A DNA stretch of 38,148 nucleotides from Streptomyces aureus (lineage in GTDB: Bacteria; Actinomycetota; Actinomycetes; Streptomycetales; Streptomycetaceae). This document shows positions 12,630-36,608 of this stretch, one piece after another. Each line of letters begins with the position of its first letter. Within the stretch, counting starts at the first letter, position 1. The stretch covers positions 1-38,148 of the forward strand of contig NZ_LIPQ01000351.1 of the NCBI RefSeq assembly GCF_001418135.1. Reading direction: 5' to 3'. A program made the translations under genes and the position numbers. A model generated the notes under the pieces. The model had not been told where the DNA came from. It made no database searches and worked only from the letters and a program-made list of their open reading frames with translations.

Positions 12630-12693
12630 CGATGGGGTGTGCCGGGGTCACCGGCCGTTACTGTTCCCCGGGATCTGGACGGATTCCCAGAGA

Positions 12694-12775
12694 TTCACCC
12701 CTCTTTCTCCCCTTTTCTCTGCTTTCCCCTGCTTTCCCCGTCTTCACTGCCTTCTCGTTTCCTCCTCTTTCACTG
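12694..12775 (+). other. Pyrimidine-rich tract upstream of the encapsulin gene
   Basis: About 82 bases that are close to 90 percent C and T on the plus strand, with several CTTT and TTTCCCC runs, ending about 55 bases before the encapsulin start. It is unlike any other stretch in the window and would be an unstructured mRNA leader if transcribed rightward, or a purine tract if transcribed leftward. Confidence 0.7.
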
Positions 12776-12828
12776 ACCGGGGCACCCGTGCGCCGGTCAC
12801 CACCCCCCTGCGAAGGAGAGCCCGCCCC

Positions 12829-14238
12829 ATGAGCGTCGACACGAGCCCGGAAGCACAGCAGGACACGCCGAAGCAGTCCAGCCTCAGTACCGCCGCTGCC
12901 CGGAACCTCGCCACCACGACCAAGTCCGCCCCGCAGATGCAGGAGATCAGCTCCCGCTGGCTGCTGCGGATGCTCCCCTGGGTCGAGACCAAGGGCGGTG
13001 CCTACCGGGTCAACCGCCGGCTGAGCTACACCGTCGGGGACGGGCGCATCGAGTTCGTCCAGGACGGGGCACGCGTCCGGGTGATCCCCCGTGAGCTCGG
13101 CGAGCTCGCCCTGCTGCGCGGCTTCGAGGACGAGGAGGTGCTGAACGCGCTGGCCGGCCGGTGCGTCCAGCGCGACTTCGGCGCGGGCGAGGTACTGGTG
13201 ACGCGCGGCACCCCCGCCGAGGAGATCCACCTCGTCGCCCACGGACGCATCAACCAGACCTCCCTCGGCAAGTACGACGACGAGGTGGCCGTCGCGGTGC
13301 TCGCCGACGGCGACCGCTTCGGAGAGAACGCCCTTCTGGACGCCGACGCCCGATGGGACTACACCGCCACCGCCGAGACCGCCGGCACGCTGCTCACCCT
13401 CTCCCGCGCCGAGTTCGCCGCGGTGCTCGCCTCGTCATCGGCCCTCCAGGCCCACATCGAGGCGTTCAGCTCGCTCCCGCTGCAGCGCCAGAACAAGCAC
13501 GGTGAGGCCGAGATCGCGATGTCGGCCGGTCACACCGGCGAGATCGCGCTGCCGGGCGCCTTCGTCGACTACGAGCTCAAGCCGCGCGAGTACGAACTCT
13601 CCGTCGCGCAGACCGTCCTGCGGGTCCACACCAGGGTCGCCGACCTCTACAACGGGCCGATGAACCAGACCGAGGAGCAGCTCAGGCTCACCATCGAGGC
13701 GCTGCGCGAGCGCCAGGAGCACGAGCTGATCAACAACCGGGAGTTCGGCCTGCTCCACAACGCCGACTTCAAGCAGCGGATCCAGACCCACTCCGGCCCG
13801 CCCACCCCGGACGACCTCGACGAGCTCCTCTGCCGCCGCCGCGGCACCAAGCTCTTCCTCGCCCACCCCCGGACGATCGCCGCGATCGGCCGTGAGTGGA
13901 ACGCCCGCGGCCTCAACCCGGGCACCGTCGACCTCGACGGCCAGCAGGTCTTGAGCTGGCGGGGCGTCCCGCTGCTGCCCTGCAACAAGATCCCGATCAC
14001 CAAGGAGAACACCAGCTCGATCCTCGCGATGCGCCTCGGCGAGGACAACCAGGGCGTCATCGGCCTCCGCCAGACCGGTCTTCCGGAGGAGTACGAGCCC
14101 GGCCTCTCGGTGCGCTTCATGGGCATCAGCGAGCAGGCGATCATGTCGTACCTCGTCACCACGTACTACTCCGCCGCCATCCTCGTGCCGAACGCGCTGG
14201 GCGTGCTGGAGAACGTGGAGATCGCCCGCCGGCACTAG
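12829..14238 (+). CDS. Family 2B encapsulin nanocompartment shell protein (with cNMP-binding-like domain)
   Basis: A 469-residue HK97-fold shell protein predicted to self-assemble into a protein nanocompartment. The ATG at 12829 follows GAAGGAG. Domain order: an extended N-terminal arm (1-40), [24 protein letters not shown] (41-64), typical of family 2 encapsulins, an inserted cyclic-nucleotide-binding-like beta-barrel (about 95-215), and the rest of the HK97 shell fold (about 240-469), including [28 protein letters not shown] and a hydrophobic C-terminal strand. The insert defines subfamily 2B (EshA / nucleotide-binding protein in older annotations). Its phosphate-binding cassette is atypical: [17 protein letters not shown] (164-180) lacks the usual R-x-A-T order, so classic cAMP binding is doubtful. 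The gene leads the 2-MIB operon; known family 2B cargo includes 2-MIB synthase, encoded next. Confidence 0.92.
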
Positions 14239-14245
14239 GGGGTGT

Positions 14246-14386
14246 CTTGCCGATCATGCCGGGCTCGCGGCGTCTGGTGCCGCACCTCGCCGCGTTGTCG
14301 TCGGTCGCCGACGCTCCGCGTCGGCTCCCTCCTCCGCCTTGCGACGCACGGCACCAGACGCCGCTCCCTGATCCGGCCCGATCAAG
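14246..14386. repeat. MITE-like hairpin element between shell and cargo genes
   Basis: A 141-bp element with long imperfect terminal inverted repeats (14246-14282 against 14349-14386). The inner 15 bases, CGGCGTCTGGTGCCG (14268-14282), are perfectly repeated in inverse at 14349-14363. Inside is a second perfect hairpin, GCCGACGC-TCC-GCGTCGGC (14307-14325). I recall near-identical sequences scattered between genes in other Streptomyces genomes, and a partial copy occurs at 6193-6227. It encodes no transposase. Transcribed as part of the operon, it would form a strong structure 8 bases after the encapsulin stop. Confidence 0.7.
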
Positions 14387-14519
14387 CCCGAGTACGTCCA
14401 GTACGAGGACGTGAGCCCGGCACAGCGAGAGCACGCACCTGACGCCCCGGGGCCGCCCGTCGGGCGACGACGGGAGTGCGACGACAGGTCCTGGAGGAGC
14501 TGTCCCGCGGCCGCCACGG

Positions 14520-14562
14520 TCCGGAGCGTCCCGGGTCGGCCGACCGTGCCCGGGACCCCGGA
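14520..14562 (+). promoter_or_regulatory. Hairpin in the leader of the 2-MIB synthase gene
   Basis: TCCGG (14520-14524) and GTCCCGGG (14528-14535) pair with CCCGGGAC (14549-14556) and CCGGA (14558-14562). The loop region contains the perfect palindrome GGTCGGCCGACC (14534-14545). It ends 19 bases before the AAGGAG of the cyclase gene. It could tune read-through, mRNA stability or translation of the cargo relative to the shell. The remaining bases of the 14239-14592 gap show no gene. Confidence 0.45.
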
Positions 14563-14592
14563 CAGCCCACCACCCTCACCAAGGAGTCACGG

Positions 14593-15924
14593 ATGCCCGA
14601 ACCCGGGCCTTCCCCTCTGCAGTCGAGCCTGCCCACCGCCGCCGCCCACTTCGGGCTCCATGTCCTCGGGCGGGCGGCCGGTCCCACCGGGACGGCCGGG
14701 GCAGCCGCTCTCACGGCCGCGGCCGCCGCCGCGACCGGTGCCGGCACCGCGCCCGTGGTCGCTCCCGCGCCCCTGGCCACCACCGCTTCCGTGGTCGCTC
14801 CCGCGTCGCCGGCCGGTGCCGTCGTGACCGCGCCGCCGGTTCCCGGGTTCGTCCTGCCCGGGCCCACCGGCCTCGGCACGGCAGGACTGTCCCTGGCCCG
14901 GCGCGAGGCCGCCCCCGAACTGCCGGAGCCTCCGGCGCCGGTGGAGGGCCGGCCGATCCCGGGCCTCTACTTCCACCCCGTACCCGAACCCGATCCCGTA
15001 CGGGTGGACGAGGTCAGCCGCAGGATCAAGGCCTGGGCGCTGGACGAGGTGCAGCTCTACCCCGAGGACTGGGAGGGCGAGTTCGACGGATTCTCCGTCG
15101 GGCGCTACATGGTCGCCTGCCACCCCGACGCCCCGACCGTCGAGCACCTGATGCTCGCCACGCGCCTGATGGTCGCCGAGAACGCCGTCGACGACTGCTA
15201 CTGCGAGGACCACGGCGGCTCGCCCATCGGCCTCGGCGGCCGCCTGCTCCTCGCGCACACCGCCCTGGACCCGCTCCACACGACGACGGAGTACCAGCCG
15301 CTCTGGGCGGAGTCGCTCCACGCGGACGCCCCCCGGCGCGCCTACCGCTCCGCCATGGAGTACTTCGTCAACCAGTCGACCCCCTCGCAGGCCGACCGGT
15401 TCCGGCACGACATGGCCCGGCTGCACATGGGCTACCTCGCCGAGGCCGCCTGGGCCGAGACGGACCACATGCCGGAGGTGTGGGAGTACCTGGCGATGCG
15501 GCAGTTCAACAACTTCCGCCCCTGCCCCACCATCACCGACACCGTCGGCGGCTACGAACTCCCCGCGGACCTGCACGCCCAGCCGGCCATGCAGCGCGTC
15601 CTCGCGCTCGCCGGGAACGCGACCACCATCGTGAACGACCTGTACTCGTACATGAAGGAACTCGACAGCCCCGGCAAACACCTGAACCTGCCCGTGGTGA
15701 TCGCCGAACGCGAAGGCGTCTCCGACCGCGAGGGCTATCTGAAGGCCGTCGAGGTCCACAACGACCTCATGCGCGACTTCGAGGCCGAGGCCGCCGCCCT
15801 CGCCGCCGCCTGCCCCGTCCCGACCGTGCAGCGCTTCCTGCGGGGCGTGGCCGTGTGGGTCGACGGCAACCACTACTGGCACCAGACCAACACCTATCGC
15901 TACAGCCTGCCCGATTTCTGGTAA
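14593..15924 (+). CDS. 2-Methylisoborneol synthase (terpene cyclase), probable encapsulin cargo
   Basis: A 443-residue class I terpene cyclase that converts 2-methylgeranyl diphosphate to 2-methylisoborneol, the earthy-musty odorant. The ATG at 14593 follows AAGGAG; an upstream in-frame ATG (14476) lacks this and would start inside a structured leader. Seen: a low-complexity Ala/Pro/Gly/Thr N-terminus (1-120), the catalytic fold from about 121, the acidic metal motif ENAVDDCYCED (D200, D201, with E205-D206), the NSE triad NDLYSYMKE (348-356) and the C-terminal motif GNHYWHQTNTYRYSLPDFW. The length matches the Streptomyces coelicolor enzyme (about 440). The disordered N-terminus is the expected cargo-loading region for family 2B encapsulins. 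The gene lies between the shell gene and the methyltransferase that makes its substrate. Confidence 0.95.
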   Translation: MPEPGPSPLQSSLPTAAAHFGLHVLGRAAGPTGTAGAAALTAAAAAATGAGTAPVVAPAPLATTASVVAPASPAGAVVTAPPVPGFVLPGPTGLGTAGLSLARREAAPELPEPPAPVEGRPIPGLYFHPVPEPDPVRVDEVSRRIKAWALDEVQLYPEDWEGEFDGFSVGRYMVACHPDAPTVEHLMLATRLMVAENAVDDCYCEDHGGSPIGLGGRLLLAHTALDPLHTTTEYQPLWAESLHADAPRRAYRSAMEYFVNQSTPSQADRFRHDMARLHMGYLAEAAWAETDHMPEVWEYLAMRQFNNFRPCPTITDTVGGYELPADLHAQPAMQRVLALAGNATTIVNDLYSYMKELDSPGKHLNLPVVIAEREGVSDREGYLKAVEVHNDLMRDFEAEAAALAAACPVPTVQRFLRGVAVWVDGNHYWHQTNTYRYSLPDFW

Positions 15925-28705: not shown

Positions 28706-28801
28706 CAACGACGGGACGTGCCGCCCTGATCGGCCAGGAGGGGGAGGCAGGTGCATGATGTGCACCAACAGCGGACGAGTTTCTGTCTGGAGGCCGAAAG
28801 A

Positions 28802-30601
28802 GTGAACGATGGCAACGGGAGGCGGCGCGTTGTCCGCCGTGCCTCGGCCGGAAAGGGCGCCTCGGTCCTCCGCTCGGCCGGTGCCCGCAGACGACTCGGC
28901 CGGAGCGAGGGCGACGTCCCCCTCGACCGCGTCACCACGCGCGAACGGCTCGCCTGGCTGAACTCCGCGGGATCCAGCATCGGCACCACCCTCGACCTGG
29001 AGCGCACCGCTCAGGAACTGGCCGAGTTCACCGTGCCCACCCTGGCCGACGGGGCCGCCGTCGACATCCTGGAGAGCGTCCTGCGGGGCGAGGAGGGGTC
29101 TCGCTGGACGGGGACGGGCATCCCGCTCCTGCGGGCCACCGCGGTGTCCGCCGTCGAGTCGCTCTCCTCCCTGGAACCCACCCCGGTGGGCGAGACCTTC
29201 GTCCGGACCGAGGAGGCCCACGAGACGCTCCTCCACCAGTACTGCCTGCGGCAGGGCAGGCCGGTCCTCGTGAGCCGCATGCGCGACGACGACTTCAGAA
29301 GGGTCGCGCCGACGGAGAGCGCCGCGGCGAAGATGCGCGCCGCGGGAGTCCACAGCTATCTGGCGGTGCCGCTGATCGCCCGCGGGCTGCTGCTCGGCAG
29401 CGCCGACTTCGTACGCGGTCCCGGAACGCCCCCGTTCTCCGACACGGACCTCGCGCTGGCCGAGCAGCTGGCCTCCCAGGCCGCCGTCTACATCGACAAC
29501 GCCCGGCTGTACGGACGCGAGCGCGAGCACGTCGTCTCCCTGCAGCGCAGCCTGCTGCCCCGCGCGACCCCGGTGACGCCGGGGCTGCGCGTCCACGCCG
29601 AGTACACGCCCTCGACGGCCCACCACGGCGTGGGCGGCGACTGGTACGACGTGATGGCCCTGCCCGGCGGACGTACGGCCCTGATGGTGGGCGACGTCAT
29701 GGGCCACGGACTGCCCGCCGCCGCCACCATGGGCCGTCTGCGGGCGGTCGCCCGCACCCTGATGACCCTCGACATGGCGCCGGAGCGGGTCCTCGCCCGG
29801 CTCGACCTCGCCACCCGTGACCTGGAGGACGAGCAGGTCGCCACCTTCCTCTGCGCGGTCCACGACCCGGCCGACTCCACCTACACCGTGGCCAGCGCCG
29901 GTCATCTGCCCCCGCTGCTCGTCGACGGCGACGGCTCCGCCGCGTTCGTGGACGTACCGATCGGCGCGCCGCTCGGCGCGGGAGTGATCCCGTACGACCC
30001 GATCCGGCTGAAGGTCCCGGTGGGCGGCCATCTGGTCATGTACACGGACGGCCTCGTCAAGTCCCGGCACGAGGACCTCGATCACCAGCTGGAGCGGCTG
30101 CGGTCGGCGGCCCGCGGCCTCACCCCCGAGGCACTCGAACGCGGCGGCCTCACGGACCGCGCCCCCACCGACGCCAGCCGCTTCGACGAGGCCGTGCTGC
30201 TCGTCGCGACGACCGCGTCGGGCCCCGCCGACGAGCTGTGCGAGTGGCAGCTGCCGCAGGAGGGGCGGGCCGCGTCGGTGGCCCGCGGTCTGGTCACGGA
30301 CCAGCTCGACGCGTGGGATCTGGCGGAGCTGGCCGACGTCTGCGAGCTCGTCGTCTCGGAGCTCGTCGGCAACGCCCTGCGCTACGGCAACGGTCCCGGC
30401 CGGCTCCGGCTGCTGCGCGGCGAACGCCTCGTCGTGGAGGTCTCGGACACGGGCCCCGACCTGCCGCAGATCCAGCACGCGGACCTCAGCGACGAGGGCG
30501 GCCGTGGCCTCCAGCTCATCAACATGCTGTGCCGCCGGTGGGGCTCGTGCCGCACCGTCTCCGGCAAGGTGGTGTGGGCGGAGCAGAACCTGCCCACGTG
30601 A
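28802..30601 (+). CDS. GAF / SpoIIE (PP2C) phosphatase with C-terminal HATPase anti-sigma-type kinase domain
   Basis: A 599-residue signalling protein of the streptomycete anti-anti-sigma phosphatase type. I chose the GTG at 28802 because GGAGG lies eight bases upstream; an in-frame GTG at 28751 would add 17 residues. Seen: a basic N-terminal stretch, a GAF domain (about 50-230, ending SQAAVYIDNARLYGRERE), a PP2C/SpoIIE domain (GVGGDWYDVM, GDVMGHGLPAAA, MYTDGLVKSR, about 255-450) and an RsbW-like HATPase domain (ELVGNALRYGNG, VSDTGPDLP, EGGRGLQLINML, about 465-599). The phosphatase would dephosphorylate an anti-anti-sigma factor, and the ATPase part would bind or phosphorylate it. There is no membrane helix, so sensing is by the GAF domain. 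It is divergent from padR. Confidence 0.93.
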   Translation: MNDGNGRRRVVRRASAGKGASVLRSAGARRRLGRSEGDVPLDRVTTRERLAWLNSAGSSIGTTLDLERTAQELAEFTVPTLADGAAVDILESVLRGEEGSRWTGTGIPLLRATAVSAVESLSSLEPTPVGETFVRTEEAHETLLHQYCLRQGRPVLVSRMRDDDFRRVAPTESAAAKMRAAGVHSYLAVPLIARGLLLGSADFVRGPGTPPFSDTDLALAEQLASQAAVYIDNARLYGREREHVVSLQRSLLPRATPVTPGLRVHAEYTPSTAHHGVGGDWYDVMALPGGRTALMVGDVMGHGLPAAATMGRLRAVARTLMTLDMAPERVLARLDLATRDLEDEQVATFLCAVHDPADSTYTVASAGHLPPLLVDGDGSAAFVDVPIGAPLGAGVIPYDPIRLKVPVGGHLVMYTDGLVKSRHEDLDHQLERLRSAARGLTPEALERGGLTDRAPTDASRFDEAVLLVATTASGPADELCEWQLPQEGRAASVARGLVTDQLDAWDLAELADVCELVVSELVGNALRYGNGPGRLRLLRGERLVVEVSDTGPDLPQIQHADLSDEGGRGLQLINMLCRRWGSCRTVSGKVVWAEQNLPT

Positions 30602-30653: not shown

Positions 30654-32879
30654 CTACAGCTCCTTCACCCGGATGTCGCGGTAGGAGATGACGTCCGTCG
30701 TGCCGTGGACCTGGAGCCCGATGTAACCGGAGGCGTAGCGCCGGCCGTCCGTGCCCGGGTCGTCGCCGCGCGGCGGCTGGAAGACCTGGCCACCGGTGTT
30801 GTCGAACTCGTTGATCAGCTTGCCGTTGCGGAAGACCGAGTAGTGCTGGCCCTCCACTCGGATCTCGTAGTCGTTCCAGGTGCCCTTCGGCGTCACCCCG
30901 GCACCGGCGAGGCCGACGCGGTCGAAGCCGTAGAGCGAGCCCGTCTTGTACATGTCGCCGTCGGGCCGGTCCAGGACCTGGATCTCATGGCCGTACTTGA
31001 TGGCGACCCACTCCGGACGGCTCTCCTCGGGGTTGTCGTGGACGTACGGGAAGCGCACGAAGACCCCGCCGTTGGCGTTGCCGGCGCCGGGGGCGTCGTC
31101 GCGCCACTGGAGCCTGAGCGAGAAGTCGCCGTACTGCCGCTGCGGGAACCACAGCATGCCCATGCCCGGCACCGTGGTGCTGCTGGTCATGGCCCCGTCC
31201 CCGCTCAACGCGAACTTCCCGCCGCCGACGTGCTGCCACTTCGAGAAGCTCGCCGCGGTGCCGTCGAACAGGTCGCGGTACCCCTCGGTCCGGCCGGGCC
31301 CGCCGATGCCCGACTGCTTGGCCGCGCGGTAGATCCTCCTGTGCTCGCGGGTGTCGATGACGCCGTCGGCGAGCAGCCGGTCGAGCACCGTGTCGACGTG
31401 CTTGAGGAACAGCGCGTGCGAGGACCAGTCCTTCTCGTCCTCGATGAGTTCGTTGACCGTGCATCGGCTGTTCGTCATCCGGTTCGGGACACCGGTGTCG
31501 ACGGTCCCGACGATGACCGTCAGTCGCTCGTCGAACTCCGGACAGTCGGGCGCGGGCACCCCGCCGCCCTCGGCGACGGTGAAGGCCGTGCTCCGGGCCG
31601 TGGAGGTGTTGCCGGCCTTGTCCGTCGCCCGGTAGAGCACCGTGTGGCGGCCGACGCGGTCGACGATCACCGGCGTGGTGTACGCGAGGTACGGGCCGCC
31701 GTCGAGCGAGTACTCGATCCGTTCGACGCCCGATTCCGCGTCGAACGCGGACAGCGTGACCGTGGCGCTGGTGAGGTACGCGCCGTCGGAGTCGCGCGTC
31801 CCCGCGACCGAGGCGGCGGCCTCGGGGGCGGTGGTGTCGGGATCGGGCTGGGTGACGACCGTGAAGGCGACCGACTTCACCGCGGCGGTGTTACCCGCCT
31901 TGTCGCTCGCCCGGTGGCGGACGGTGTGCTCGCCCGCCTGGTGCACCATCACCGGAGCGGTGTACGGCTGCCAGGCGCCGTCGCCGATCGCGTACTCGAT
32001 GGTGTTGACGCCCGACCCGGTGTCGGACGCGGTCACCGTCACCGTGGCCATGCCGAGGTAGCGGCCCTGGTCGTCCCGCTCGCCCGACACGGTCGCCGAG
32101 GTCTCCGGCGCCGTCGTGTCGTCGGTGGGCCGGGCGACGACCGCGAACGCCGCGGTCTTCTCGGCGGCCGTGTTGCCCGCCTTGTCGCTCGCCCGGTAGC
32201 GGATCGTGTGCGCGCCGACCCGGTCGACGACGACCGGGACCGTGTACGGCTGCCACGGGCCGTCCGCGCCGACCGCGTACTCGACCTTGTCGACGCCCGA
32301 ACCGGCGTCCGTCGCGCCGAGCGTGACCGTCGCCTGGCCGACATAGGCGCCGTCGGCGTTGCGGTCGCCCTCGACCTTCGCGGTCGTCTCCGGCGCGGTG
32401 GTGTCCTCGCCGCCGCCCTCGGTGACCGTGAGGATGCCCTGCATCTGGCCGTGCCCGGGGATCGTGCACTTGAAGAGGTACCGGCCCGGGGTCAGTGTCA
32501 CCTCGGCCGTGTGGCGGCCGCCGTTCGCGTCGCCCGGGTTGGCCAGGATGTTGAGCGGGACGTCGTTGTTGTACTCCGGGTCGGAGACGTCGAACGTCAG
32601 GGTGTGCGGCATGCCGGTCGTGTTGCCGGTGGCCGCGCTGTTCTCGAAGACGATCGTCGTCGCGCCGGCCACCGCCGTGGTCGGGAACTCCAGATAGCGG
32701 TCGATCGGATCGCCCGCCTTCCAGGTCAGCACCTGCGCCGCGGCGGTCCGGCGTCCGCCGTCGCCGCGTCGCGCGTCGTCCGCCCTGCCGTAGGCGGCCG
32801 CCGAGGTCAGGCCGACGACCATCGCCACGGCGGCCAGCAGGGCCGCCCACAGGCTCGTGCCCCTGTGTCTCGTGATCAC
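30654..32879 (-). CDS. Secreted protein: cupredoxin + three Ig-like (OmpL47-type) repeats + DUF1080 domain
   Basis: A 741-residue exported protein. The GTG at 32879 overlaps the upstream stop by four bases (GTGA), so it is translationally coupled to the ThuA/dehydrogenase gene. Domain order: signal peptide (1-30), cupredoxin (about 45-153) with type 1 copper ligands His92, Cys138, His143 and Met146 (MPHTL and KCTIPGHGQMQ), three Ig-like repeats starting at about 159, 255 and 349 (each DTTAPE...SGV...YRASDKAGNT), a Cys-containing spacer, and a C-terminal beta-sandwich of the 3-keto-disaccharide hydrolase / DUF1080 family (about 535-741; YRDLFDGT, GGVFVRFP, YEIRVEGQHYSVFRNGKLI). The copper site could accept electrons from the dehydrogenase partner (inference). 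Confidence 0.9.
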   Translation of the reverse strand: MITRHRGTSLWAALLAAVAMVVGLTSAAAYGRADDARRGDGGRRTAAAQVLTWKAGDPIDRYLEFPTTAVAGATTIVFENSAATGNTTGMPHTLTFDVSDPEYNNDVPLNILANPGDANGGRHTAEVTLTPGRYLFKCTIPGHGQMQGILTVTEGGGEDTTAPETTAKVEGDRNADGAYVGQATVTLGATDAGSGVDKVEYAVGADGPWQPYTVPVVVDRVGAHTIRYRASDKAGNTAAEKTAAFAVVARPTDDTTAPETSATVSGERDDQGRYLGMATVTVTASDTGSGVNTIEYAIGDGAWQPYTAPVMVHQAGEHTVRHRASDKAGNTAAVKSVAFTVVTQPDPDTTAPEAAASVAGTRDSDGAYLTSATVTLSAFDAESGVERIEYSLDGGPYLAYTTPVIVDRVGRHTVLYRATDKAGNTSTARSTAFTVAEGGGVPAPDCPEFDERLTVIVGTVDTGVPNRMTNSRCTVNELIEDEKDWSSHALFLKHVDTVLDRLLADGVIDTREHRRIYRAAKQSGIGGPGRTEGYRDLFDGTAASFSKWQHVGGGKFALSGDGAMTSSTTVPGMGMLWFPQRQYGDFSLRLQWRDDAPGAGNANGGVFVRFPYVHDNPEESRPEWVAIKYGHEIQVLDRPDGDMYKTGSLYGFDRVGLAGAGVTPKGTWNDYEIRVEGQHYSVFRNGKLINEFDNTGGQVFQPPRGDDPGTDGRRYASGYIGLQVHGTTDVISYRDIRVKEL

Positions 32880-35368
32880 TGCGCCGTCCTCCTCGCCAGC
32901 TGGTCCGCGGCCGGGGTGGGCCCGCCGCCCTTGTAGGTCACGCGCCACAGCGCGGAGTCGGGGTGCGAGGTGAAGAAGCCGCGCCCGTAGTCGAGGACGT
33001 ACAGCGAACCGTCCGGGGCGAACTTCCAGTCCATCAGGTTGCGGATGCCGCCCTGCCCGACCGGGACGATCTTCTTCAGGGACTCGGCGTGCACGGGGAG
33101 GCCGCCCCTGCCGACGGTCTTCGGATCGGTGAGCACGGCGTGCCGCGGCTGGTCCCCGTCGTAGAAGTCGCCGACGAACCACTTGCCGTCCCAGTACGAA
33201 GGCCACTTGACCGTGGAGTCGCTCGCCGCGTCGTAGCGGTAGAGCGGACCGTTCATGGTCGCCTGCCCGCCGCCCTTGAGCCACGGCAGCAGCAGCTTCT
33301 GCTCCTCCTGCCGGTAGCTCGGGATGCCGTCGGCGTCCCTGGGGTAGTCCACGCCGCCGCCCTGGGGCGAGTACCAGATCGTGTTCCCCGTCACCGGCGG
33401 CAGGTTCACCAGGCCGTCGTTGTTCGGGGACTCGTTCTTCGGCGCGTCGCAGTCGTACCAGCCGAGCGGCTTGGCCGGGTCGAGCGGACCGCGGTCCCGG
33501 TAGGGCTGCTTGTTGCCCATGCAGTACGGCCAGCCGTGGTTGCCCGCCTTGGTGATCGCGGCGAACGTGTCGTACTTGGCCGGGCCCCATGTCGTGGACG
33601 GCGCGCCCGCGTCGGGGCCGACCCAGCCCGCGTAGAGGATGTCGGTCGTCCTGTCGACGGAGATGCGCGCGGGGTTGCGCACGCCCATCACATAGATCTC
33701 GCCGCGGGTCTTGCCGCCGCCCTCGTCGCTCTCCTGACCGGTGAAGAGATTGCCGGTGGGGAGGGTGTACGTGCCGTCGGGCTCGGGATGGATCCGCAGG
33801 ATCTTCCCATTGAGGTTGTTGGTGTTGCCGGCGGTGCGGCGCGCGTCCGCGAAGGAGACGCCCCTGAAGTTCGGGGCGGGATTGTTGCCCGAGTAACCTC
33901 CGCTGGATCCGGACGAGTTGGTGTCACCGGTGGCGATGTACAGATTGCCCTTGGAGTCCCAGGCCATTCCGCCGCCCGCGTGGCAGCAGCTGTGGATCTG
34001 CACCGGCCAGCTCAGCAGCACCTTCTCGCTCGCCAGGTCGAGCCTGTTCGTCGCGAGATCCAGGGTGAAGCGGGAGACCCGCCGCTCGCCCATGTGCTCC
34101 ACGCGGTCGATCCGGGAGTGCGGTGTGTAGTGGAGGTAGACCCAGCCGTTGGTCATGAAGCCGGGGTCGAGCTCGATGCCGAGGAGCCCCTCCTCGTTCT
34201 TGATCAGCTCGTCGCCGCCGCCCTTGTTGCCGAAGACGGTGAGCGCGCCGGCCTTGGTGACCTGCCGGGTCTTCGGGTCGTAGACGTGGATCTCGCCGTT
34301 GCCCCTGCCGATGTCCGGGTTGTTCCAGTCGGTGACCACCGGGACGCTGGAGTCGGCGCCGCCGCGGCCGATGTACAGGATGCGGCCGTCGGGAGCGGCG
34401 ACGAGACCGTGCGGCTCGCCGATCTGGTCGTTCTGGCCGGGCTGGTTGGGCTTGGTGACGCGCTCGGCGGTGTAGTTGGCGTCGATGGTCGCCTTGCAGT
34501 CCGCCCGGGAGATCCGCGCGGTCCAGGCGATCGCGCCGCGCAGGTGGTCGCGGAAGTCCGTCTCGGCGTAGCTGTCGACGGTGCCGCCCATGGCGGTGTA
34601 GAAGGACCGGCCGCCGTCGTAGTCACGGCACCAGGACACCGGGTGGTCCCACCCGTTGGGCCTGGCGGCGGGCTGGTACGAGGACTCCCGGACCCGCGCC
34701 ACGGTGTGCACGGTGCCGGACGGGTTGCGGTCCCAGTTGAACCACTTGTCGGGCCGCCTCCACTCCAGCGGAAGGGACTTCGTGGCCGGGTGCCGCCGGT
34801 CGCCGACCTCCACCACCGCGCGCTGTGTGCCGCTCGGGGCGCCGGTGGGCCGGGCGCCGATCAGGCCGGTGAACCAGCCGGAGTAGGGCTCGGTGCGGGC
34901 GGCCTCGTGGACGCCGACGAAACCGCCGCCCGCCTCCATGTAGGCCTCGAGGCCCGCTTCCTGCTCGGGGTCGAGCACATCGCCGCCACCGGTCAGGAAG
35001 ACCACCGCGTTGTACCTGCCGAGCCGCCTGGCGTCGGTGAAGACGGCCGGGTCGTCGGTGGCCTCCGTACGGTAGCGGCCGGCGGCCGGGCCGGTGAGGC
35101 CGATGGTCTCGACGGCCGCGATGCCCGCGTCGACCGTCGGCGACTCGGCCGTCGCGGACCCGTGGAAGACGAGGACCCGTACGGTGGCGCCGCCCGGTGG
35201 CGACGGCAGGGATAACGTTGTCGCCGCCCTGGCCGACGGCGGGTCCGGATCCGGCTTGGCGGCGGCGGGGTTGCCGCCGAGCAGGGAGGCGGTCAGTGCG
35301 CCTGCCCCAAGTGCCGCCACGGCGAAGCCTGTTCTCGATCTCGACCGGTGATGTGGTGTGCGCTTCAT
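32876..35368 (-). CDS. Secreted ThuA domain + PQQ-type glucose/sorbosone dehydrogenase fusion
   Basis: An 830-residue exported protein. The ATG at 35368 follows GAGGGATGGG. Seen: a signal peptide (RSRSRTGFAVAALGAGALTA, cleavage near AAA-KP), a ThuA-like domain (about 62-290; VRVLVFHGS, FLTGGGDVLDPEQ, GGGFVGVHEA, PVSWCRDYDGGRSFYTAMGG), then a six-bladed GSDH-type beta-propeller (about 310-820) with GEPHGLVAAPDGRILYIGRGG, NEEGLLGIELDPGF, HAGGGMAWDSKGNLYIATGD and GVRNPARISVD. It would oxidise a sugar or 3-keto sugar outside the cell with PQQ; ThuA-like proteins act in trehalose and related sugar use. The coupled cupredoxin protein and the divergent laccase make electron transfer to copper plausible. 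No PQQ synthesis genes are in the window. Confidence 0.92.
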   Translation of the reverse strand: MKRTPHHRSRSRTGFAVAALGAGALTASLLGGNPAAAKPDPDPPSARAATTLSLPSPPGGATVRVLVFHGSATAESPTVDAGIAAVETIGLTGPAAGRYRTEATDDPAVFTDARRLGRYNAVVFLTGGGDVLDPEQEAGLEAYMEAGGGFVGVHEAARTEPYSGWFTGLIGARPTGAPSGTQRAVVEVGDRRHPATKSLPLEWRRPDKWFNWDRNPSGTVHTVARVRESSYQPAARPNGWDHPVSWCRDYDGGRSFYTAMGGTVDSYAETDFRDHLRGAIAWTARISRADCKATIDANYTAERVTKPNQPGQNDQIGEPHGLVAAPDGRILYIGRGGADSSVPVVTDWNNPDIGRGNGEIHVYDPKTRQVTKAGALTVFGNKGGGDELIKNEEGLLGIELDPGFMTNGWVYLHYTPHSRIDRVEHMGERRVSRFTLDLATNRLDLASEKVLLSWPVQIHSCCHAGGGMAWDSKGNLYIATGDTNSSGSSGGYSGNNPAPNFRGVSFADARRTAGNTNNLNGKILRIHPEPDGTYTLPTGNLFTGQESDEGGGKTRGEIYVMGVRNPARISVDRTTDILYAGWVGPDAGAPSTTWGPAKYDTFAAITKAGNHGWPYCMGNKQPYRDRGPLDPAKPLGWYDCDAPKNESPNNDGLVNLPPVTGNTIWYSPQGGGVDYPRDADGIPSYRQEEQKLLLPWLKGGGQATMNGPLYRYDAASDSTVKWPSYWDGKWFVGDFYDGDQPRHAVLTDPKTVGRGGLPVHAESLKKIVPVGQGGIRNLMDWKFAPDGSLYVLDYGRGFFTSHPDSALWRVTYKGGGPTPAADQLARRTAQ

Positions 35369-35573
35369 GGGTCACCCATCCCTCTGAGGTCACAACGACA
35401 GCCGTTGAAGCTAGACCTCTTTGCGCGGTTCGCCAAGGTCTATGGCCGCAACCGGACGAACTTTGTCCTGGGTGTGGATAAACCACTGTCGTCCCGCTAC
35501 GGTGTGGGCCGTCCCAGGAGCCCCCGTTGGCCCCGCAGCCCGTCAATCTCCTCTGAAGACCGGAGAGTTCGAC

Positions 35574-36608
35574 ATGGACAGACGCAGCTTCAACCGTCGC
35601 CTGCTCGCGGGCGGGGCCGTCGCCGCGACCGGCGTGACATCGTTGTCTCTCACCTCCGCCTCCAGTGCCGCACCCGACGCGGCCGCCGCGGCGGCCCCGC
35701 TGAGGACTGCCCCGGCCGGCGGCCGGATACGCCATCTCAGGCTGTACGCCGAGAAGTTGGCCGACGGGCGCATGGGCTACGGCCTGGAGAAGGGCAAGGC
35801 CACCGTGCCCGGCCCGCTCATCGAGCTCAACGAGGGCGACACCCTCCACATCGAGTTCGAGAACCTGATGGACGTCCCGGTCAGCCTCCACCCGCACGGC
35901 GTGGACTACGACATCGACAACGACGGTACGAGGATGAGCGGCAGCCACGTCGAGGCGGGCGCCACCCGCACCTACACCTGGCGCACCCACGCCCCCGGCC
36001 GCCGCCCCGACGGCACCTGGCGGCCCGGCAGTGCCGGGTACTGGCACTACCACGACCACGTCGTGGGCACGGACCACGGCACCGGCGGCATCCGCAAGGG
36101 CCTCTACGGCGGCCTGGTGGTGCGCCGCAAGGGTGACATCCTGCCGGACAAGCAGTTCACCATCGTCTTCAACGACATGACGATCAACAACCGGCCGGCC
36201 GCCGATCCGCCGAACTTCCTCGCCACCGTGGGCGACCGGGTGGAGATCGTCATGATCACGCACGGCGAGTACTACCACACGTTCCACATGCACGGTCATC
36301 GCTGGGCCGACAACCGCACCGGTCTCCTCGGCGGCCCCGAGGACGTGAGCCGGGTCGTCGACAACAAGATCACCGGACCCGCCGACTCGTTCGGGTTCCA
36401 GGTCATCGCGGGAGAGCACGTCGGAGCCGGCGCCTGGATGTACCACTGCCACGTCCAGAGTCACTCCGACATGGGAATGGCCGGACTGTTCCTGGTGGCC
36501 AAGCCGGACGGCACCGTACCCGGCCACGGCGACCACGGCACGCACGGTGCGGCGACGGCGAAGGAGGGACCGGCCCCCCGGACCTCAGGCGGAACCCACC
36601 ACCACTGA
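35574..36608 (+). CDS. Two-domain small laccase (SLAC-type multicopper oxidase)
   Basis: A 344-residue extracellular multicopper oxidase that oxidises phenols and reduces oxygen to water; the length is essentially that of the Streptomyces coelicolor small laccase. I chose the ATG at 35574 because GGAGAG precedes it and a Tat signal follows ([16 protein letters not shown]). Copper-binding motifs: LHPHGVDYD (His106, His108), YWHYHDH (158-162), HTFHMHGH (235-242) and the type 1/type 3 segment [13 protein letters not shown] (290-302). Two cupredoxin domains mean it should work as a trimer. The His-rich C-terminus (GDHGTHG, THHH) may bind extra copper. It is divergent from the ThuA/dehydrogenase gene across 205 bases holding a possible TACGGT -10 box at 35498-35503. 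Confidence 0.96.

Follow-up and report, generated by a model that had tools for sequence, protein, structure and literature searches.

Pseudoazurin and azurin are small cupredoxins that feed the two-domain copper nitrite reductase (CuNiR). SLAC-type laccases, which take in S. coelicolor SCO6712 (SLAC; PDB 3cg8), are widely studied, and their natural role is unsettled; a 2026 paper describes what two-domain oxidases, among them SLAC-like ones, do physiologically as poorly understood (PMC13151041). In the openly licensed literature searched, no dedicated protein partner or sugar-enzyme neighbourhood was found for SLAC-type laccases, and no report links them to a cupredoxin, to ThuA-GSDH or to DUF1080. 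For DUF1080 proteins, activity on 3-keto-glycosides that a dehydrogenase has produced is established or proposed: excerpts of PMC9007349 name BT2157 a 3-ketotrehalose hydrolase and propose CCNA_01705 as a 3'-ketolactose hydrolase, and place BT2157, like CCNA_01705 beside Caulobacter LacABC, among DUF1080 proteins that carry a putative signal peptide and are encoded near a sugar dehydrogenase.

Here we describe a locus with both a protein partner for a SLAC-type laccase and a sugar-enzyme neighbourhood. The window, that is, the whole stretch analysed, comprises 38,148 nucleotides of Streptomyces aureus (contig NZ_LIPQ01000351.1, positions 1 to 38,148). Positions 30654-36608 are filled by three intact genes. 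A laccase with a twin-arginine-type leader is encoded at 35574..36608 on the plus strand; on the minus strand lie the genes for a ThuA - GSDH-type beta-propeller protein of 830 residues (32876..35368) and for a 741-residue protein composed of a cupredoxin domain, three OmpL47/Ig-like repeats, a linker and a DUF1080 domain (30654..32879). The latter two genes form an operon, with a 4-nt overlap (GTGA) between the ThuA-GSDH stop codon and the GTG start of the cupredoxin gene, and the operon diverges from the laccase gene with 205 nt between them. The divergent pair beside a small laccase had been described in a sequence-only reading, and that description is confirmed, with every gene complete. 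For the laccase, ATG 35574 is the most likely start codon, in preference to 35421, where the mechanical open reading frame (ORF) begins. Putative export leaders are recognised by eye at the N-termini of all three proteins, that of the laccase (MDRRSFNRR) being of the twin-arginine type.

As in the CuNiR systems, a putative small type 1 copper protein accompanies a two-domain trimeric copper enzyme. Caulobacter uses the membrane complex LacABC, whereas in the window a GSDH-type propeller is the candidate oxidase and electrons would take a route through the cupredoxin and the laccase. Every part belongs to a known family.

Genetic linkage of the laccase, propeller and cupredoxin genes

The cupredoxin is the closest genetic partner of the laccase, and the laccase, the propeller and the cupredoxin protein almost certainly constitute a functional unit. 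This follows from the linkage counts, from loci in which a cupredoxin accompanies two laccases, and from distant ThuA-GSDH loci that serve as a control. Among 101 Streptomyces genomes (the window genome, G000, of 7.92 Mb over 707 contigs, and 100 drawn evenly), a laccase is detected at E up to 1e-60 in 61, a full-length ThuA-GSDH protein (67-100% identical) in 60 and both in 59. Wherever both occur they are divergent neighbours (59/59), with 171-417 nt, median 232, between alignment ends. The cupredoxin-DUF1080 protein is found in the same 60 genomes as the propeller, and five more genomes match its DUF1080 part only. A single propeller, that of G073, has no laccase, and the contig stops 302 nt beyond it. 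Two genomes have the laccase only, namely G058 and G048. In G048 (L024, contig C83, 9234-10070) the C-terminal half of the laccase abuts the C-terminal part of DUF1080 and the middle of the module is missing, which may be a deletion scar or an assembly error.

The named Streptomyces loci are the best 80 of at least 550 confirmed matches and are thus selected by similarity; S. coelicolor is not among their species. In all 80, 175-376 nt separate the propeller from a laccase on the opposite strand, and the cupredoxin gene shares the propeller strand at a distance of at most 1011 nt. In the 60 of these loci that exceed 20 kb, a crude gene picker recovers the three module genes in 55, 55 and 56, whereas the genes that flank the module in the window are found again in no more than 1-2. 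The distance matrices of the three proteins correlate (r 0.89, 0.75 and 0.80 over 36 loci), but these values are not used as evidence because shared descent alone yields them.

The linkage extends beyond the genus. In a class-level set of 246 genomes, the laccase (E up to 1e-50) and the cupredoxin domain, searched separately at E up to 1e-6, each occur in 39 genomes, exactly the same 39, of which 38 also have a linked propeller; five of the 39 are shared with the genus set. A laccase lies within 10 kb of the cupredoxin (782-5255 nt) at 40 of 41 cupredoxin loci. The exception is G483, where the cupredoxin is near the start of another contig and the laccase contig is cut inside the module. Conversely, 3 of 49 laccase loci have no cupredoxin within 10 kb, namely this break in G483 and the solo laccases G353:C15 and G363:C3. 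Genera other than Streptomyces account for 23 of the 39 genomes, and in 22 of them a linked propeller is present, always beside a laccase; profile search finds the cupredoxin in 21 of the 22 propeller loci, the remaining one (L065) being cut at a contig start. Conservation of the three-gene cluster, named beforehand as a check on the sequence-only reading, thus holds in all 59 assessable Streptomyces genomes, all 80 named loci and all 22 non-Streptomyces loci. The pair commonly standing without a laccase, which would have spoken against that reading, is not observed, as a laccase is beside it throughout these three sets.

The domains are distributed differently outside Streptomyces. There, DUF1080 is fused to the ThuA-GSDH chain, and the cupredoxin-Ig protein stands alone downstream. 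Where uncut, the mechanical ORFs of these ThuA-GSDH-DUF1080 chains are 1345-1508 residues long; where scanned, they carry a discoidin-type insertion within ThuA as well as a PKD domain. In 15 of the 22 loci there are two copies of the linker, which, to judge by position, belong one to the propeller chain and the other to the cupredoxin chain. Furthermore, additional end domains, which differ from lineage to lineage, are common to members of the module. In L061, the laccase, the cupredoxin protein and a protein of the AP_endonuc_2 family with a TAT-type (twin-arginine) leader have a common C-terminal domain (82-85% over about 96-106 residues); in L083, laccase and cupredoxin share one (93% over 94 residues); and in L058, a FIMAH-like end occurs both on the propeller chain and on one of the laccases (45% over 69 residues), scoring 24.4 bits in the laccase, just under the cut-off of 24.8, and 29.7 bits in the propeller chain. 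No similarity is detected between the linker and the end of the L058 laccase. These shared ends suggest that the module proteins go to the same place. The AP_endonuc_2 protein of L061 (14700-16151), which is sugar isomerase-like, is a possible further module member in that family.

Three loci (L080, L083 and L084) encode a cupredoxin and two laccases without a propeller or DUF1080. In the control, which comprises 20 hand-picked distant ThuA-GSDH loci (GSDH part 33-39% and ThuA part 35-45% identical), neither a cupredoxin nor a laccase is found in any of the 15-kb stretches, so that the laccase link is a property of one ThuA-GSDH group. Giant ThuA-GSDH-DUF1080 proteins without a laccase (e.g. 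G196:C11) contain the same enzymatic domains in one chain, and a contig of 3496 nt in the window genome itself (L082; C604, 1-3496) encodes a ThuA-DUF1080 chain that also contains CBM6 and PKD domains and matches GSDH just below the cut-off. These fusions point to a joint sugar role of ThuA, GSDH and DUF1080 apart from the laccase. C604 also bears further GSDH sequence, and neither a laccase nor a cupredoxin is present on that short contig. A chance neighbourhood of unrelated secreted enzymes, for which nothing speaks beyond the ordinary occurrence of each family, was rejected in view of the 59/59, 22/22 and 39 = 39 linkage, the 0/20 control, the variable flanks and the shared end domains, and its probability is negligible.

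Several observations weigh against the module as a strict unit. The linkage counts are not phylogenetically independent. True solo laccases exist in G058, G353:C15 and G363:C3. A phylum-level set of 246 genomes adds eight more distant genomes with a laccase, and the partners are absent in the three of these eight loci that were fetched; for L089, flanking sequence is available on a single side. The sequence of L080 breaks off directly after its cupredoxin, and its genome has no linked propeller elsewhere. G037 keeps the trio with a cupredoxin protein that lacks DUF1080, and this domain is therefore dispensable there.

The cupredoxin protein

The cupredoxin domain (residues 45-160; 32400..32747, minus strand) has no Pfam match in the window protein. 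Among its relatives, the L083 cupredoxin scores 26.8 bits against PF00127, above the cut-off of 21.2, and matches plastocyanin 1pla (E 3.7e-4); that of L061 stays below at 18.6 bits. The candidate type 1 copper ligands H92, C138, H143 and M146 are invariant in 12/12 aligned proteins, the window protein included. The motif C-x2-PGH-x2-M is found in 131 of 135 ORFs, some of which are the same gene in two loci; two of the four misses are matches to propeller-DUF1080 chains, and the other two change only the Pro and retain C, H and M. The domain is predicted to be a beta-sandwich, with a predicted local distance difference test score (pLDDT) of about 80-91 at residues 51-150. A His/Cys/His/Met ligand set in a predicted cupredoxin fold would make this a type 1 (blue copper) protein. 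However, a fold search with the protein returned no cupredoxin among 50 listed of 1714 matches, which were Ig-type, DUF1080 and other structures.

Behind the cupredoxin domain follow, on the same strand, three OmpL47-type/Ig-like repeats (31560..32402; NF047446, 273.7 bits in three stretches; PF19077), which NCBIfam names OmpL47-type barrel and Pfam Ig-like, and a linker of about 93 residues without a significant Pfam match (31284..31562). The DUF1080 domain, also called 3-keto-disaccharide hydrolase, occupies residues 533-739 (30663..31283; PF06439, 3keto-disac_hyd, 120.4 bits). The predicted structure is usable in the cupredoxin and repeat parts; part of DUF1080 has pLDDT below 50. Fold matches of this partly modelled domain, at E ~1e-8 and 22-24% identity, are the 3-keto-2-hydroxy-glucal hydratase 8tda and the 3-keto-glycoside eliminase/hydratase structures 8rr2 and 9fbe. 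Profile and fold thus back the assignment to the 3-keto-glycoside enzymes, in agreement with the glycoside-acting role that had been proposed for DUF1080.

The cupredoxin could alternatively handle copper for the laccase by storage, delivery or Cu(I) oxidation, the trio being grouped for copper supply. The pairing of cupredoxin and laccase is the most constant part of the module, as this explanation would have it, and copper homeostasis is among several roles proposed for bacterial laccases in excerpts of PMC5675413. The linked ThuA-GSDH-DUF1080 part is left unexplained, however, and the cupredoxin has a complete type 1 ligand set. Complete Cys/His/His/Met sets are typical of electron carriers rather than of copper chaperones. 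We regard a role in copper supply as quite improbable. The cupredoxin is instead probably the redox partner of the laccase.

The ThuA-GSDH propeller and its cofactor

The propeller protein consists of a ThuA domain (residues 64-283; 34520..35179, minus strand; PF06283, 202.8 bits) followed by a GSDH propeller core (residues 388-617; 33518..34207, minus strand). The core reaches 79.8 bits against PF07995, for which the cut-off is 25, but over a partial profile (44-223 of 332), and the score against TIGR03606 is 33.7 bits, far below its cut-off of 434.55. The 135 linked propeller chains give 126 unique ones after removal of duplicates. All 126 have the H/N-S-C-C-H motif at residues 459-463 (33980..33994, minus strand; HSCCH in 116 and NSCCH in 10), of which H463 aligns with a His conserved in GSDH proteins. 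H463, R564, N565, G584 and P585 are kept in at least 95% of 39 linked chains and in at least 90% of the readable chains among 22 non-linked ones.

Other features of the propeller speak against a conventional dehydrogenase that uses pyrroloquinoline quinone (PQQ). The Glu of the GSDH signature ExN...GWP is kept in none of the 126 unique linked propellers, its position being Thr in 124 and Gln or Ser in 2. It is retained in 19 of the 22 non-linked chains (2 differ and 1 is unreadable) and in the canonical GSDH of the window genome (C188), and it may be a ligand of the calcium that accompanies PQQ. The canonical RxR is absent from linked and non-linked propellers in the alignments as printed. Of the family signature as it stands in C188 (His, RN, DExN...GWP and RxR), the window propeller retains the His and RN, has lost the Glu of ExN and lacks RxR. 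At 58 positions in total, linked chains have a conserved residue that non-linked ones do not share; 10 of these positions lie in ThuA, e.g. G262 in place of His. Because the AlphaFold2 model of the protein is too poor (mean pLDDT 46.8, from 30 close sequences), the cofactor site is judged from the alignment.

PQQ synthesis does not track the module. By profile search, pqqE scores above cut-off in 22 of the 101 Streptomyces genomes, 13/60 with the module and 9/41 without it (Fisher p = 1), and it is not found above cut-off in the window genome. The same search gave 0/14 in control genomes, its positives being the 22 hits themselves. The missing pqqE is not decisive for PQQ use, because the window genome has a canonical GSDH and yet no pqqE above cut-off. 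The description as a PQQ-type dehydrogenase in the sequence-only reading therefore stands as to family, by the PF07995 match, and is doubtful as to PQQ, given the untracked pqqE and the lost Glu. That the propeller uses PQQ in the usual way seems doubtful to us; borrowed PQQ or a changed cofactor is possible.

These same features would suit a propeller that has given up redox chemistry and serves a 3-keto-sugar pathway as a scaffold of the binding or lyase type, with oxidation left to laccase-made oxidants or to another enzyme. The loss of the Glu and RxR, the partial profile match, the low TIGR03606 score and the lack of a PQQ-synthesis link favour it; the conservation of H463, R564, N565, G584 and P585 and the invariance of the H/N-S-C-C-H motif do not. 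Such a scaffold is rather unlikely in our judgement. That the propeller is a sugar dehydrogenase feeding the cupredoxin has a little less than even chances.

The laccase and the proposed route of electrons

The window laccase is a plain two-domain enzyme. It scores above cut-off against PF07732 (Cu-oxidase_3, 54.9 bits) and PF07731 (Cu-oxidase_2, 60.0 bits), copper-ligand His/Cys segments, HCHVQSH among them, are visible in its translation, and residues 1-343 match SLAC (E 8.7e-172), of whose type it is an unexceptional member. Laccases 84-89% identical to SLAC sit in the same trio (e.g. L134, L147 and L161).

In the proposed pathway, the GSDH-type propeller would oxidise a sugar or glycan residue outside the cell, and the DUF1080 domain, helped by ThuA, would open and hydrate the resulting keto-glycoside. 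Electrons would pass from the propeller to the cupredoxin and from there, directly or via a small mediator, to the laccase, which would reduce O2 to water. We infer that the proteins are exported, what each catalytic step is and which way the electrons flow. Of the sequence-only reading, which had likewise put forward a chain from the propeller through the cupredoxin to the laccase, the genetic side is strongly supported and the interpretation as a whole in part. The step from cupredoxin to laccase is favoured because of the loci with only cupredoxin and laccase, the end domain that the two share and the analogy with nitrite reductase; on balance, we lean towards the cupredoxin being the electron donor of the laccase. 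The analogy has a structural limit: CuNiR is a type C enzyme with its type 1 (T1) copper in the N-terminal domain, and SLAC-like enzymes are of type B with T1 in the C-terminal domain.

This placement of T1 in the two types is given in excerpts of PMC13151041, in which a model of the type B two-domain oxidase CjMCO has its T1 sites facing the central tunnel of the trimer. CjMCO belongs to a different superfamily than SLAC; its tunnel-facing T1 argues against easy docking. By this comparison, direct docking of the cupredoxin on the T1 copper of the laccase would be harder and is not obviously possible, and a small mediator may therefore be needed between the two proteins.

A tunnel-facing T1 copper would suit small substrates, and laccase activity of two-domain enzymes on phenols is stated in abstracts. 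The laccase might accordingly act on phenols, with the resulting radicals or quinones accepting electrons from the propeller and the cupredoxin being accessory. Fungal sugar dehydrogenases and laccases undergo such redox cycling through phenol radicals and quinones. However, phenol cycling leaves unexplained the closer association of the laccase with the cupredoxin than with the propeller (39 versus 38 genomes) and the three loci that have a cupredoxin and two laccases but no propeller. We hold this explanation to be unlikely. For the cupredoxin-linked route, the chances seem evenly balanced that the locus encodes a redox module, conserved and probably secreted, in which the laccase cooperates with a blue-copper protein of its own and with a set of 3-keto-sugar enzymes.

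The divergent control region

The 205 nt between the operon and the laccase gene (35369..35573) contain conserved motifs and are a putative divergent promoter region. The region, including a central 12-bp box, GAACTTTGTCCT (35458-35469), is strongly conserved among 69 Streptomyces loci selected by a start filter, some of which come from one genome. On the propeller side, a promoter-like TTGGCG-N17-TAGCTT lies at 35408-35436 on the minus strand, and the pattern TTGGCG-N15to19-TAGNNT recurs in 65 of the 69 loci. On the laccase side, GTGGAT-N18-TACGGT (35474-35503, plus strand) is likewise promoter-like, and GTGGA-N19-TAC(G/C)GT is found in 9/9 loci printed. The conserved box may serve joint control of both sides. 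Adjoining it is TGTGGATAA (35458-35479 for the two together), in the window the reverse complement of TTATCCACA, a sequence that we take to resemble the consensus of the DnaA box.

Other genes in the window

A regulator gene with GAF, SpoIIE phosphatase and HATPase domains (28751-30601, plus strand) adjoins the operon. Because it is found in only 2 of the 60 long named loci, it is not a module member. Conserved flanks of Streptomyces loci (LigD primase and ligase, a desaturase and a glyoxalase) were considered and judged unrelated to the module. Further away, at 12637-15924 on the plus strand, a SrpI-like encapsulin shell protein with a cyclic-nucleotide-binding domain (PF19307, PF00027) is followed by a terpene synthase (PF19086); the pair is a family 2 encapsulin with a terpene-synthase neighbour.

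Implications

The usual neighbourhood of the laccase in Streptomyces and some of its relatives suggests a dedicated protein partner and a sugar-related job, and not only that of a lignin or phenol oxidase. More tentatively, and as a reading that we hold to be less likely than not, the small laccases of these bacteria may form the last, O2-reducing subunit of a sugar oxidase made up of several secreted proteins, in which a purpose-built cupredoxin wires to the laccase a propeller with a changed cofactor site (the H/N-S-C-C-H motif in the absence of the canonical GSDH signature) and DUF1080 and ThuA process the keto-sugar. If this is true, the laccase, the cupredoxin and 3-keto-sugar chemistry would be united in one extracellular pathway, SLAC-type laccases would have a dedicated protein electron donor, and the module would act as an extracellular mini-respiratory chain without a membrane or a cytochrome. 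The near-invariant genetic partner makes the natural role of SLAC-type laccases directly testable.

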